Shown here in pieces: positions 32,150 through 39,276 of a stretch of DNA of 64,000 bases. The DNA is taken from NCBI GenBank assembly GCA_030657355.1, contig CP131056.1, positions 310,001-374,000 on the forward strand, in the 5' to 3' direction. Below the pieces are notes generated by a model that saw only the letters and a list, made by a program, of their open reading frames with translations, was not told the DNA's origin and searched no databases. The stretch is from Radicibacter daui. GTDB lineage: Bacteria; Pseudomonadota; Alphaproteobacteria; Radicibacterales; Radicibacteraceae. The first letter of the stretch is position 1. Each line of letters starts with the position of its first letter. The translations under genes and the position numbers were made by a program.

Positions 32150-33205
32150 TCAGGCGTCCGGGGCCGCTTCAATATCTGACCAGGACAGAGGCGTGGCACG
32201 GGCTATGGGGCGCCGGGCGACAGAACCGAGCACCTTCGGCAAGTCCGCAGGCGGCAGCCCGTGACCGGGGCGTACAGACCGTACATTGTCGACCGTAAGA
32301 CGTTCGCCCGTTGCAATATCCCTGGTCGCATAAAGAGAGCGACGGAACTGGGCGTTGCCTTGTTCTGATCCTTTCGGATCGTAGTTGATCCGGCCCAGGG
32401 CACTCCAGGCCATGTTGCAGTCACGAACCAGTACGGCGAATTCTTCGGGCTCGAGGGAAAAGCCGGAGTCTGGCCCGCCATCGGCCCGTCGCAGGGTCAG
32501 ATGCTTTTCGATCACGGTGGCCCCGAGCGCGACCGCTGCAACACTTACCGCGGTTCCCTGGGTGTGGTCGGAGAGCCCGACCGGACAGCCAAAGGTCTGG
32601 CCGATATGCGGCATGGTGAGCAAATTCGAATCTTCTGCGGGAGCCGGGTAGGAGGAAATGCAATGCAGCAGGACGAGCTCGCGGCAGCCGGCAGCGCGAG
32701 CCGTTGAAACGGCTGCTTCGATTTCTCCAAGATTGGCAAGGCCGGTTGACATGATCATCGGTTTTCCCTGCCGCGCGACGGTCTCGATCAGCGGCAGATC
32801 TACCAGCTCGAAGGAAGCAATCTTGTAGGCCGGAGCACCAAGGCCGGCGAGAAGGTCTACTGCAGAGGCGTCGAACGGAGACGAGAATATAACGATCCCC
32901 AGATCCGCAGCCTTCTGGAACAATGCTTCATGCCATTCCCAGGGCGTGTGTGCTTCCTCGTAAAGATCATAAAGACGGCGGCCTCCCCAAGGGCCGCCCT
33001 TGATGAGAAATTCGGGCCGGTCGCTGTTCAGCGTTATCGTGTCCGCCGTATAGGTCTGCAGTTTGACTGCGCTCGCTCCGGCATCCTTGGCGGCCTCAAT
33101 AAGGGCAAAAGCCCGGCCTATGTCGCGATTATGGTTGCCGGACATCTCGGCAATAATGAACGGGCGTGAATCTTTCCCTACGGGGACGCCAGAAATCTCA
33201 AACAT
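32150..33205 (-). CDS. pseI: pseudaminic acid synthase
   Basis: PseI condenses 2,4-diacetamido-2,4,6-trideoxy-L-altrose with phosphoenolpyruvate to pseudaminic acid. The 351-residue product has the NeuB-type barrel: FIIAEMSGNHNRDIGRALIE-like segment with AKDAGASAVKLQTYTADTITL, the SSPFDASAVDLL and GLSDHTQGT motifs, EKHLTLRRADGGPDSGFSLEPEEF for PEP and metal binding, and a C-terminal SAF (antifreeze-like) domain from about 285. The AEMSGNHN...TADTITL pattern fits PseI better than NeuB or LegI. The ATG directly follows the pseH stop (TGAAATG), so translation is coupled. It is the last synthesis gene of the cluster. Confidence 0.93.
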   Translation of the reverse strand: MFEISGVPVGKDSRPFIIAEMSGNHNRDIGRAFALIEAAKDAGASAVKLQTYTADTITLNSDRPEFLIKGGPWGGRRLYDLYEEAHTPWEWHEALFQKAADLGIVIFSSPFDASAVDLLAGLGAPAYKIASFELVDLPLIETVARQGKPMIMSTGLANLGEIEAAVSTARAAGCRELVLLHCISSYPAPAEDSNLLTMPHIGQTFGCPVGLSDHTQGTAVSVAAVALGATVIEKHLTLRRADGGPDSGFSLEPEEFAVLVRDCNMAWSALGRINYDPKGSEQGNAQFRRSLYATRDIATGERLTVDNVRSVRPGHGLPPADLPKVLGSVARRPIARATPLSWSDIEAAPDA

Positions 33206-33206
33206 T

Positions 33207-33737
33207 TCAGATGCTTTCGCTGAAGTATCGGGCTTCGAGTTCTTTATGGCAGAAAAGCCAGGTTTCCCGATCCAGTCCAAATCGTAGGACCTTTGGTCCG
33301 GCGTCTGCACGTCGGGTAAATCCGAGCCGCAAATGGGTGTTGATGGAAGCGATGTTATCCTGCTTGGTGATTCCGGCGATATAGGCAGCCTGCTTCCTGG
33401 TAAAAAGGAACTCCAGCATCAGCAGAAGCATTCGGCTGCCCGACCCCGGGGCAGTGTGCTCGGCGCCGATATAGAAGCCCCACTCCCATGTGCTGGCGTC
33501 ATTCTTCGTCTGTGTTGCGTTCACATGGCCGAGCGGTTTCCCGTCCTCTTCAAAGATGAACATAAGGACGTCGGCCCGTCTTAGCTGCCTTTCAAGCCAG
33601 CTTGTATGGCGTTCCCAGACCGGAGCGGCTGAGTCGAACATCCAGCGCCTTACGGAGGTTCGGGAACGCCAGTCAAATAGCAGCCTGGCGTCATTCATGT
33701 TTACCGGCCTTATGGCGTAACGTTGCTTTGCAGTCAT
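33207..33737 (-). CDS. pseH: UDP-4-amino-4,6-dideoxy-L-AltNAc N-acetyltransferase (GNAT)
   Basis: PseH acetylates the 4-amino group of the UDP-sugar made by PseC. The 176-residue protein has the GNAT fold: RYAIRPVNMNDARLLFDWRSRTSVRRWMFDS at the start, the WEWGFYIGAEHTAPGSGSRMLLLMLEFLF acetyl-CoA region, and NIASINTHLRLGF at the end. The start ATG directly follows the pseG stop in the arrangement TGAAATG, identical to the pseH/pseI junction. This fixes the start despite possible ATG codons inside pseG. Confidence 0.9.
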   Translation of the reverse strand: MTAKQRYAIRPVNMNDARLLFDWRSRTSVRRWMFDSAAPVWERHTSWLERQLRRADVLMFIFEEDGKPLGHVNATQTKNDASTWEWGFYIGAEHTAPGSGSRMLLLMLEFLFTRKQAAYIAGITKQDNIASINTHLRLGFTRRADAGPKVLRFGLDRETWLFCHKELEARYFSESI

Positions 33738-33738
33738 T

Positions 33739-34839
33739 TCAGGACAAGGCCATTGCATCGACAACTCTTGTACTTCCTTGTCCGTCGCACAGCCCCGCTG
33801 CTGCGGCACTCATGCGGCGCCATGTTGCCCGATCCCGGCTAATTGATCGGTAGGCGGAAAGAAATCTGGCGCTGTCGAACTTTGCGCCCTCCCCAAGGTA
33901 AATCGCACATCCACTCGCGTGTAGACCGATTGCCGGCCGGTGTTGGTTATCGGCAAGGCTGAAAACCAGGGCAGGAAGTCCGAGGCAGCAGCGCTCCCAG
34001 CTTGTTCCACCGCCGGCGCCGACGGCGAGATCGCACAGGCTCATCAAGCTGGCGACCTCATTGCTATCGATGTGGAGACAGAGCCGGCTTCCGTTAGCTT
34101 CTGCGAGCGATTGAAGCGACGGTAAGGTCCGGGCCGAACTGCCGATGGCTATATGGATGAGCGCACCCGTCGGGAGTAGCGCCCGGGCAATTGTTTCGTT
34201 CATGCCCCCGGCATCCATCATTCCCATGGAGACAAAAACCGTGGGTTCGGCATCGGGCGGTTGACGCGAAGGAAGCGTCTTTTGTCTTGAAGCCGCAAAT
34301 TCCGGCCTCAGCAACGCATAATCCGGCCCCAGAAGAAGTCGCGGACCGCCCCGGAGGCGCCGGTTATATGCGTCCAGAAAGCTCGCATCGGGCAAATTCT
34401 GGTTCAGCAGGAGATCGCAGTCGATATCGCGATCTGCCACGTCATCGATGACAAGAATATGGTTTGTCAGGTCGCGTGCACGGCGATGCCAGCGAGCGTC
34501 CAGTGCATAATGATCGACGACCAGCCAGTCCAGTCGGCCGTTGACGCTGCTTGCAGACGCCGAAAAATCCGTCCAATCCTTCGTCCAGGAAACTTCCAGC
34601 CATTGCTGGTGGGGAGGGCCTTCCTGTTCTGTCGGGGTGCTTTCTCCGGTGGGGGGAGGCAGCCAGATAACGTTGTGCCCCTCGTCCTTCAGCTTTGTGC
34701 CCAGATTTCCCTCAAGCTCGCGCACAAAAAAAAAGCAAGACGCACCAATGCTTCGTAGAGCATTCGCCAGAACGAGGCAGCGCATGATGTGCCCGCCTCC
34801 AATTTGGCGGGACGCATCAACGCGAAAACCGATTTTCAT
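33739..34839 (-). CDS. pseG: UDP-2,4-diacetamido-2,4,6-trideoxy-beta-L-altropyranose hydrolase
   Basis: PseG removes UDP from the diacetylated sugar. The 366-residue GT-B-like protein opens with MKIGFRVDASRQIGGGHIMRC, containing the GGGHxxR motif with catalytic His17 that defines PseG. It continues with LVVDHYALDARWHRRARD and VIDDVADRDIDCDLLLNQN, and has the UDP-binding GAGGGTSWERCCLGLP near residue 300. It overlaps pseF by four bases (ATGA) and touches pseH, consistent with tight operon translation. It is slightly longer than the Campylobacter enzyme, typical for alphaproteobacteria. Confidence 0.93.
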   Translation of the reverse strand: MKIGFRVDASRQIGGGHIMRCLVLANALRSIGASCFFFVRELEGNLGTKLKDEGHNVIWLPPPTGESTPTEQEGPPHQQWLEVSWTKDWTDFSASASSVNGRLDWLVVDHYALDARWHRRARDLTNHILVIDDVADRDIDCDLLLNQNLPDASFLDAYNRRLRGGPRLLLGPDYALLRPEFAASRQKTLPSRQPPDAEPTVFVSMGMMDAGGMNETIARALLPTGALIHIAIGSSARTLPSLQSLAEANGSRLCLHIDSNEVASLMSLCDLAVGAGGGTSWERCCLGLPALVFSLADNQHRPAIGLHASGCAIYLGEGAKFDSARFLSAYRSISRDRATWRRMSAAAAGLCDGQGSTRVVDAMALS

Positions 34840-35551
34840 TGCTTCTCCTGAAGCGCTTCCGAGTGGCTATTCTCGGTGAGGCGACGAAACAGAAGTTCAG
34901 CAAGCTCCCAATCTTCCAGGGTGTCTATGTCCTGCACCTGCGTACGCGGGAGCTTGATGGCCGCCGCGCCCTGCCAAAGCGACAATCCCTCGTCCAGCCA
35001 GGCTGTGCGGGTGCCCCAGTAGAACTGCCCCGCGTCATGCCAGCACTCTTCCAGATCTTGCGAACGCCGCGGCATGGCGTCGGGATCCACAGGAACCAGC
35101 CGGTTCAGGCTGTCGGTGCGCAAGGCTCTCTGAATGGGAAAGTCAAAACCCGTAACGGTGAAGGCAAAATTACTGGCCGTATCTTCCAGCAGCGTCAATC
35201 CAGCCTGCAGAGCTGCGGCCGTTACGAAGGGGGCCGTCGGGTAAAGGCAACATGCCGCTTCGCAGAGTACCCCCAACTTTTCCATTTCCCGCACGGCATG
35301 CCGGACGACCGGGACCGTGCCCGTGAAATCGTCGGCGAGAGCCGCCGGTCGCATGAATGGCACGTCGGCACCGAACTCACGGGCGACGGCTGCGATCTCG
35401 TCGTCATCTGTTGAAATAACAACGCTGGTGAAGATACCCGCCTTGCGAGCAGCCTCAATTGAATAGGCGATAATCGGCTTGCCAAGGAAGGCACGTATAT
35501 TCTTTCGCGGAATACGCTTGCTGCCACCCCGGGCCGGTATCACGCACAGCA

Positions 35552-35552
<1 letters not shown>
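34836..35552 (-). CDS. pseF: pseudaminic acid cytidylyltransferase
   Basis: PseF activates pseudaminic acid with CTP to CMP-pseudaminic acid, the donor for transfer. The 238-residue protein has the CMP-NeuAc synthetase pattern: IPARGGSKRIPRKNIRAFLGKPIIAYSI with the nucleotide-binding loop, STDDDEIAAVAREFGADVPFMRP, LYPTAPFVTAAALQAGL and a metal-binding DIDTLEDWELAE at the end. The RIPRKN and GQFYWGTRTAWL segments fit PseF. The start overlaps the pseC stop by one base (TGATG) and its stop overlaps pseG. Confidence 0.94.
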
Positions 35553-37920
<2,368 letters not shown>

Positions 37921-39276
37921 ATGTCGATCGCACTTGTCGGTTTTCGAAAAAACGTTTTAGAGCATTTGTTAGAATATAATTTTGATATTTCCTATTTTAT
38001 TGGATCGGAAAAAAAGGAAACTGCGTCTATTGATGACATAGAGTCTGTATATTATGATGATTTATTTTGGATGAAGCGTGCTGAATTTTCTTCGTCACTG
38101 AATTTAGATGTGGCGAATAAGGTTAGAAGTGCGTGTTATCATCTGTTTATTAGGACGCATTATCGACATCATAGCAGGTCGAATCCAAGGGCGGAAAGTT
38201 GGCTGGATTTTAACAATCATTTTGAGTCAGCTCTTCAATATTATTGGAATGTTATTGAAAGGAATAACATAAAAACGGTAATATTTTCGAACATTCCTCA
38301 TGAGGCTTCTTTAATAATTTTGTATTACTTATGCATGTATTTGGGAGTAGGTACTTTTGTATTTCTGCAATCTCAATTTCCGGGTCATTTTTTTGCTGCA
38401 AAAACAATTGATGGTATGGGTTTAGATAAATTTCGTGAGGATGCTGATTTTCGCATAGTTATGAATAAGAATCCAAAGCCCCCTTATTACATGGCATGGA
38501 GAGTGTCCGTAAATAGAGGTTATTTTTATAAGAATTATTTTCTTATATGTACAAAGATATTGTTAAAGATTATGTCATTTTCTTTTATTTACAATAAAAA
38601 TTCATTTCGTAAAAGTTTTACAAAGCTTAGAAAATTATCATCTATTTACAAACAGCAAAATCTCCCTGAGAGTTTATACTCAAAATTTGAATCTGGTGAA
38701 AAGTATATATATTTTCCTCTCCATCTTCAGCCTGAAATGACTACAGACATACTTGGTGGAAAATATTGTGATCAGCTTTTGGCGATAGAAGAATTAGTGA
38801 GAATTTTACCAAAAGACATTTTTGTGTACGTTAAGGAAAATCCTAAACAAACTACTTATATGAGAGAAGAAAGTTTTTATCAAAGATTGTCTTTAATTAA
38901 TAGAGTGAAATATATGTCAATGGATGTTTCGAGTTATGACTTAATAGATGGCTCTCAAGGTGTGGCGACAATAACAGGGACGGCTGGATGGGAGGCCTTG
39001 CAAATGGGAAAGCCGGTAATTGTATTTGGTGCAGCTTGGTATCGAGAATTATCAGGTGTTTTTGATTGGAATAAAGATGCCGAGAAGGCGGTAAGCGGAC
39101 TTTTAATGTTCGAACACAACAATGATGCCTTGGAGCAATCTTTGTGGGAAAAATCTAAACAAATTTTTCCTGGTGTTTTGGATGAAAATTACAAGGTTCT
39201 TCTTGAAGATTTTGATCATTTAAAGAACGCAAAAATCGTGGCCGAGAGTATACAGAAAATACTGGGGCAGAAATAA
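37921..39276 (+). CDS. KpsS/KpsC-like capsule glycosyltransferase, candidate pseudaminyltransferase
   Basis: This 451-residue protein is encoded by strongly AT-rich DNA (about one third G+C by eye) in a G+C-rich genome. Its C-terminal half follows the capsule-polysaccharide synthesis pattern (PF05159-like, as in KpsS/KpsC): YIYFPLHLQPEMTTDILGG, DIFVYVKENPKQ, and the donor-site ATITGTAGWEALQMGKPVIVFGAAWY. The N-terminal half is poorly conserved, with IFSNIPHEASLIILYYLC. Related KpsS-like proteins were proposed as pseudaminyltransferases in Acinetobacter capsules. Position divergent to a complete CMP-pseudaminic acid operon suggests this is its transferase, but the acceptor is unknown and the assignment is inference. 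No membrane segment or signal peptide is obvious. Confidence 0.7.
   Translation: MSIALVGFRKNVLEHLLEYNFDISYFIGSEKKETASIDDIESVYYDDLFWMKRAEFSSSLNLDVANKVRSACYHLFIRTHYRHHSRSNPRAESWLDFNNHFESALQYYWNVIERNNIKTVIFSNIPHEASLIILYYLCMYLGVGTFVFLQSQFPGHFFAAKTIDGMGLDKFREDADFRIVMNKNPKPPYYMAWRVSVNRGYFYKNYFLICTKILLKIMSFSFIYNKNSFRKSFTKLRKLSSIYKQQNLPESLYSKFESGEKYIYFPLHLQPEMTTDILGGKYCDQLLAIEELVRILPKDIFVYVKENPKQTTYMREESFYQRLSLINRVKYMSMDVSSYDLIDGSQGVATITGTAGWEALQMGKPVIVFGAAWYRELSGVFDWNKDAEKAVSGLLMFEHNNDALEQSLWEKSKQIFPGVLDENYKVLLEDFDHLKNAKIVAESIQKILGQK

Follow-up and report, generated by a model that had tools for sequence, protein, structure and literature searches.

A KpsS1-like GT-B protein encoded beside a pseudaminic acid operon in Radicibacter daui is a predicted pseudaminyltransferase

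The 64-kb window of the Radicibacter daui genome analysed here carries, at positions 37921..39276 of the forward strand, a gene for a KpsS1-like GT-B protein of 451 amino acids, termed P0001, that we predict to be a CMP-pseudaminic acid:glycan pseudaminyltransferase. Specifically, P0001 probably transfers pseudaminic acid (Pse) from CMP-Pse to a cell-surface glycan by double displacement, with Glu272 as the nucleophile; the donor, acceptor, covalent intermediate and retention discussed below are those that we infer for it. Sequence, gene neighbourhood and co-occurrence agree on a KpsS-like pseudaminyltransferase as the best reading, and the predicted fold agrees more weakly.

The open reading frame fills exactly 37921-39276 and runs intact from an ATG start through 451 codons. 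With a G+C content of 0.336 (GC3 0.294) in a region of about 64% G+C, it is as AT-rich as the original prediction had described. The six pse genes beside it range in G+C from 0.472 to 0.597, and the two genes flanking the cluster have G+C/GC3 values of 0.642/0.791 and 0.67/0.828. So large an excess of A+T over the pse operon makes it probable that the P0001 gene arrived independently of the operon, and their adjacency could be secondary.

The neighbouring pathway is complete. A pseB-C-F-G-H-I operon runs on the reverse strand from 37734 down to 32150, divergently from the P0001 gene, with 186 bases between the starts of P0001 and pseB. Five of its six products score above their NCBIfam equivalog cut-offs, namely the UDP-GlcNAc 4,6-dehydratase PseB (36715..37734; TIGR03589, 555 bits, cut-off 407.75), the aminotransferase PseC (35552..36718; TIGR03588, 544.9 bits, cut-off 423.5), the CMP-Pse synthetase PseF (34836..35552; TIGR03584, 315.2 bits, cut-off 205.7), the UDP-sugar hydrolase PseG (33739..34839; TIGR03590, 258 bits, cut-off 153.55) and the pseudaminic acid synthase PseI (32150..33310; TIGR03586, 494.6 bits, cut-off 340.25). 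The PseI match begins at residue 50, and the true pseI start is probably inside this open reading frame. Only the GNAT N-acetyltransferase PseH (33207..33809) falls below its cut-off (TIGR03585, 56 bits, cut-off 93.1; PF13302, 54.8 bits); despite this score it is, judged by its sequence, the expected type of protein at the expected place in the operon. Thus, the complete operon that was first recognized by inspection is borne out by profile searches.

P0001 and the operon sit amid housekeeping genes and outside any capsule locus, with a nucleoside-deoxyribosyltransferase-like gene on one outer flank and hutI on the opposite side. P0001 had been singled out as the only transferase candidate near the pse genes, and we found nothing else resembling a glycosyltransferase gene within about 10 kb of it (10 proteins scanned with Pfam, the remaining open reading frames by eye). 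No further glycan gene was seen in the 64-kb window, where most open reading frames were judged by eye. A scan near P0001 returned 5 promoter-like sites (5.8 expected) and 0 terminators. The family and order of this genome hold no second genome, and therefore no empty site for comparison.

Family assignment begins with the C-terminal domain. PF05159 (Capsule_synth) matches residues 236-375 of P0001 with 46.9 bits (E 3.4e-12), above the gathering cut-off of 20, and the capsule-type donor motif named in the original prediction is present, reading ...TITGTAGWEALQMGKPVIVFG. Pfam matches to Pertussis_S1 and ATP13 lie below their cut-offs and were treated as chance. Searched as a single sequence, P0001 finds KpsC structures weakly (E 3e-4), and a profile of 8 family proteins searched against the PDB finds KpsC at E 8.6e-10 and WbbB at E 2e-5. 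When the P0001 clade is compared with the KpsS1-like clade, profile to profile, the probability of a match is 99.8%. Profile E-values are 1e-25 to 1e-29 to the KpsS1-like clade and 1e-9 to 1e-10 to 16 of 40 control KpsS-type proteins. The same kind of alignment ties the N-terminal half of P0001 to the KpsS1-like clade from residue 103 onward, and the predicted model shows strands and helices there that fit the N-terminal domain of a GT-B protein, with moderate to low confidence. This half, which at first had seemed unlike anything recognizable, is thus not alien.

The AlphaFold model itself is weak. It was built on 7 sequences, has a mean pLDDT of 61 and a pTM of 0.52, and falls below a pLDDT of 50 in stretches that include residues 149-236, 270-276 (around the predicted nucleophile) and 412-451. 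Re-alignment of 1000 chains to this weak model with VIA-align places KpsC (6mgd), the comparison that the original prediction had named, first (Z 14.4, rmsd 5.7, 210 residues). WbbB reaches Z 11.6, and KrkA, which transfers Kdo in E. coli K13 (GT140), reaches Z 10.8 with 229 residues aligned at rmsd 6.1; background GT-B proteins (UDP-GlcNAc 2-epimerases, GumK and trehalose synthases) score Z of about 10-12.5. Foldseek E-values order the matches differently: UDP-GlcNAc 2-epimerases come first, WbbB stands 10th and KpsC 24th. These other matches reflect the common GT-B arrangement, and the fold match is therefore support rather than proof. P0001 groups with the ulosonate transferases KpsC, WbbB, KrkA and KpsS1 by profile and, more weakly, by predicted fold, and we assign it with moderate confidence the GT-B fold common to KpsC, WbbB and KrkA.

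The active-site motifs were examined in an alignment of 69 family proteins, 3 of them from phages, from which family hits below 25 bits were left out. A maximum-likelihood tree of 68 rows (L135 omitted, motif columns kept in) joins P0001 and its relative in genome G051 at 100/99, the relative in G471 at 98/80 and that in G672 at 99/96. P0001 falls within a 14-row clade supported at 96/88, and the KpsS1-like set (L003, L005, L008 and L127) forms a separate clade at 100/100. Several branches in the 14-row clade are long (L054, L052, L004 and L124, with a warning from the tree program for L004 with L052), making its outer members less sure.

The counterpart of the QXXXD nucleophile motif is the sequence HLQPE at codons 268-272 (38722..38736, forward strand). 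Column 272, which aligns with the KpsC nucleophile Asp160, holds E in 60 and D in 9 of the 69 proteins, and column 268, which aligns with the Gln of QXXXD, holds H in 41 and Q in 19; the KpsC residue and motif are as given in the cited part of PMC10148158. Glu272 is on this alignment the predicted nucleophile of P0001. The counterpart of the CMP-binding HP motif is Asn-Pro at codons 307-308 (38839..38844, forward strand), in a column with H in 47 and N in 14 of the 69.

Near the N-terminal active-site position the family diverges. P0001 has Phe-Ser where KpsS1-like proteins have Tyr-Glu, so that Ser123 occupies the position of the proposed KpsS1 base; column 123 is E in 5 of 69 proteins, and the Tyr-Glu rows are L003, L005, L008 and L127. 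The alignment thus indicates that the catalytic base of P0001 is not the glutamate proposed for KpsS1. Just beyond it, at codons 126-127 (38296..38301, forward strand), lies a Pro-His motif that is present in 13 of the 69 proteins, all of them inside the 14-row clade of P0001; the next residue, Glu128, is not conserved. In the model, loop 123-130 comes after strand 117-122, whose end aligns with the KpsS1 YE motif. Because the Pro-His loop adjoins the strand that ends at this position, His127 is a reasonable candidate for the base, and the best one that the alignment and model offer. It is possible, though on balance doubtful, that P0001 founds a separate Pro-His-clade family in a large and mostly uncharacterised superfamily of nonulosonate transferases, in which the base, differently placed in KpsC/WbbB and in KrkA/KpsS1, would have shifted to yet a third site, a histidine in a loop. 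A limited literature search found no published account of this clade.

The KpsS-like precedent in Acinetobacter has moved from a proposal to an activity reported as established: KpsS1 of Acinetobacter baumannii is described as a GT118 enzyme, a retaining Pse5Ac7Ac transferase (PMC12887879, in a passage citing Walklett 2024). The cited part of that source presents Glu132 of the YE motif as a proposed base, not proven and not stated there as a family criterion, and has the KrkA base Glu102 correspond to the YE position (PMC12887879). The literature consulted also included PMC12053666, PMC9676051, PMC3628348 and PMC10320297. Among our sequences, the Acinetobacter homologue L003 has 480 amino acids and a Tyr-Glu with Glu at 132; this residue and the K-locus setting make it very likely that L003 is KpsS1 itself or a near variant of it. 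KpsS3, going by the title of a cited reference, is likewise said to link Pse.

P0001 resembles KpsS1 in its C-terminal domain, in the position of its nucleophile motif and in its association with a complete pse set. The kinship is nevertheless remote (22% identity to L003 as a stand-in for KpsS1, phmmer E 2e-21), and P0001 belongs to a separate clade, has Phe-Ser instead of Tyr-Glu with the Pro-His motif close by, and is encoded among housekeeping genes, whereas KpsS1 is encoded inside a capsule locus. A KpsS-like pseudaminyltransferase, as originally predicted, is kept as the best reading with these qualifications and with a family that extends beyond Pse. With the GT107 beta-Kdo transferases KpsC and KpsS and with WbbB (GT99), P0001 shares the predicted GT-B fold, a PF05159-type C-terminal domain and an acid at the nucleophile position. 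In contrast to their invariant QXXXD with its Asp nucleophile, P0001 has Glu for Asp and His for Gln. Their base, Glu66/Glu158, ends the next strand, where the residue of P0001 nearest the KpsC Glu66 position is Gln150, at the end of predicted strand 144-150 with model confidence low from 149. The position of the KrkA base is Ser123 in P0001.

A tblastn search of a plasmid collection matched 9 records, 7 regions of which were examined (H7 and H9 match the same place with the same identity as H6 and H8). In 6 of the 7 the relative has pse genes around it, and in 5 these amount to a strict pse set as defined below. Annotated pse genes surround the relative in Mesorhizobium, Mariluticola, Sphingobium, Klebsiella and Pseudosulfitobacter records; the Sphingobium relative lies between pseF and pseG, the Pseudosulfitobacter locus shows no pseF, and the Mariluticola locus has pseB, pseC, pseF and pseG with a synthase nearer to NeuB. 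In the Acinetobacter record (L003) the full six-gene pse set, recognized by similarity, is part of a K locus, and the relative in Rhizobium WL3 belongs to a NeuB/NeuC-type locus.

Searches of two genome samples at E 1e-5 gave hits in 45 of 385 class genomes and 17 of 398 phylum genomes, with the genome of the window in both. Exclusive of the window, 59 distinct family loci (45 from the class sample and 14 from the phylum sample) were examined together with flanks of up to about 10 kb. The controls came from the 80 phylum-sample genomes with a PF05159 match; for 40 of these, taken from the top of the list with P0001-matching genomes excluded, the best hit was used, and the controls therefore represent classic kps loci. 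Stretches of at least 19 kb cover 39 of the 59 family loci and 30 of the 40 controls. Some control loci contain open reading frames faintly similar to P0001 (17-35 bits), and a few low scorers among the 59 (e.g. L087, L135 and L136) resemble KpsC/KpsS proteins.

Nonulosonate genes occur near 40 of the 59 family loci and near 0 of the 40 KpsC/KpsS-type controls (Fisher p 1.9e-13), at thresholds set after first looks at the scores: 100 bits to PseI for a NeuB-family gene or 60 bits to PseF for a CMP-nonulosonate-synthetase-like gene, a value that may let in other cytidylyltransferases. Counted by taxonomic family code, the figures are 28 of 40 versus 0 of 17. A NeuB-family gene alone is found near 30 of the 59 and near none of the 40 controls, and a strict pse set (PseI at 300 bits plus at least one of PseB at 200, PseC at 250, PseF at 200 and PseG at 130) near 7 of 59 versus 0 of 40.

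The closest relative, in G051 (locus L047; 45% identity over residues 54-447), stands apart from pse and NeuB-family genes, none of which lies within about 10 kb of it, and that genome carries a complete pseBCFGHI set on another contig, of which PseB and PseI pass their cut-offs. The relative in G471 (33%) belongs to a pse operon, where it ends 4 bases ahead of pseB; genes that by eye resemble capsule-export genes lie a few kb away. The relatives in G672 (L124; 38% over residues 245-421) and G535 (L126) lack pse and NeuB-family neighbours over about 10 kb. The consistent association with non-pse loci that was to count against the original prediction is seen in part, among distant clades, and not for the two nearest relatives. 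L126 is also one of a pair of near-identical transferases in two genomes of one genus; its partner, L125, ends a complete pse operon. Within the G471 pse operon, a patch at L123:12953-16119 comprising pseG, two hypothetical genes and a gene that is PIG-L-like by eye has GC3 of 0.27-0.33, amid genes of about 0.58-0.70, and is perhaps a mosaic operon for a Pse variant.

Family members also accompany other synthases. Eight of the 10 scanned, including that of Mariluticola, resemble the NeuB model more than the PseI one, and those of L067 and L073 pass the NeuB cut-off. This suggests that the family at large acts on several nonulosonates, not on Pse alone. The PF05159 protein of L073 is the only glycosyltransferase-type Pfam match among the 10 scanned of 18 listed open reading frames. 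This legionaminate-type locus (L073:1303-16639) has a NeuC that passes its cut-off, an aminotransferase nearest the LegC family though below cut-off, an N-acetyl sugar amidotransferase (WbuX) and, by eye, HisH/HisF-like genes. Pattern searches of genome_contigs, made with patterns that were not conserved motifs, returned 0 relatives for P0001 and only the G051 MAG again for the P0001 and G051 pair.

Relatives occur on phage-like DNA as well. In viral_contigs, 7 loci encode one; tblastn of named phage records found 0, a pair search with P0001 and G051 found 0 in viral_contigs, and two single phage relatives used as queries returned only themselves and near copies. Loci L010-L015 are phage-like contigs with a sugar cassette. 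That of L012 (943-8930) encodes a PseB-like dehydratase, an aminotransferase, a cytidylyltransferase, a PIG-L deacetylase and a Pro-His-clade transferase, together with a short protein that has a borderline NeuB match (22.3 bits), and a phage capsid gene lies downstream. A phage-borne nonulosonate pathway seems possible.

We envision P0001 as a cytoplasmic GT-B enzyme that would be fed CMP-pseudaminic acid by the adjacent PseB-C-H-G-I-F pathway, with a surface saccharide as the acceptor, be it a lipid-linked repeat unit, LPS or capsule glycan. If modelled on KpsC, WbbB, KrkA and KpsS1, its C-terminal Rossmann domain would hold CMP-Pse while Glu272, equivalent to the aspartate of QXXXD, forms a covalent Pse adduct by attack on the anomeric carbon. 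An acceptor hydroxyl, activated by a base in the N-terminal domain, would then resolve this adduct with net retention. The genome contains one PF05159 match and one NeuB-family match, which is PseI, both searched at E 0.001, and a dedicated transferase-synthase pair is thus plausible. Counted against this assignment are the gap in base composition to the pse operon, the G051, G672 and G535 relatives without pse genes nearby, the strict pse set at just 7 of 59 loci, the NeuB-leaning synthases, the Rhizobium NeuB/NeuC locus, Asn for His in the HP motif, the KpsS1 base position without Glu, and the weakness of the structural model, for which epimerases rank first by Foldseek.

It is unlikely that P0001 instead transfers another ulosonate, either Kdo or a Leg/Neu-type sugar, and came to lie beside the pse genes by chance of acquisition. 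Base composition unlike that of the operon and family loci with Neu/Leg-type synthases such as L073 (NeuC, NeuB and a LegC-like aminotransferase) would fit such an enzyme. However, with PseI as the only NeuB-family match, the genome is not expected to make a Leg/Neu donor of its own, the absence of nonulosonate genes at all 40 control loci sets the family apart from an ordinary Kdo-capsule context, and the two nearest relatives, in G051 and G471, go with pse operons.

Somewhat less likely still is that P0001 places Pse on flagellin in the cytoplasm, in place of Maf or FlmG. The genome has 9 flagellin-type matches and 0 matches to the Maf model PF01973, but this absence says little, since PF01973 hit just 4 of 14 control genomes, all archaeal, and may miss bacterial Maf. 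P0001 itself matches no Maf model and no TPR model in Pfam, whereas FlmG has an N-terminal TPR domain that binds flagellin, according to the cited part of PMC7591256. The G051 genome (completeness 92%) combines the closest relative and a full pse operon with no flagellin match, which argues for a non-flagellin acceptor, and the relatives of Mesorhizobium and Klebsiella (as annotated) and Acinetobacter (by eye) lie in polysaccharide clusters. Long flagellin frames of 727-776 amino acids are found on contig C2 of G000 and at L103 and L104, with TPR and GT41 genes beside three. Elsewhere in the window's own genome, a TPR protein ends in a GT9-type region that stays under the Pfam cut-off, a FlmG-like layout. 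The flagellins of this genome, flanked by TPR and GT41 genes, and its TPR-glycosyltransferases could also consume CMP-Pse and so weigh against P0001 as its user; flagellin could be an additional Pse sink. That the gene is a decaying recent import without present function is very improbable: its base composition is strongly mismatched and no promoter exceeds chance in the scan, but its 451-codon frame is unbroken, and its product is 41% identical, end to end, to a 452-amino-acid relative and retains the acid at 272 together with the C-terminal motifs.

In the cited parts of the sources used here, Pse transfer is demonstrated for a single enzyme of this fold, KpsS1. P0001, as a predicted pseudaminyltransferase, is a stand-alone candidate with a full donor pathway adjoining, and it points to a set of related candidates. 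These make testable how a catalytic base might shift while the position of the nucleophile stays, and whether the fold also acts on Leg/Neu-type sugars. Such enzymes would serve as tools for making defined Pse glycans.
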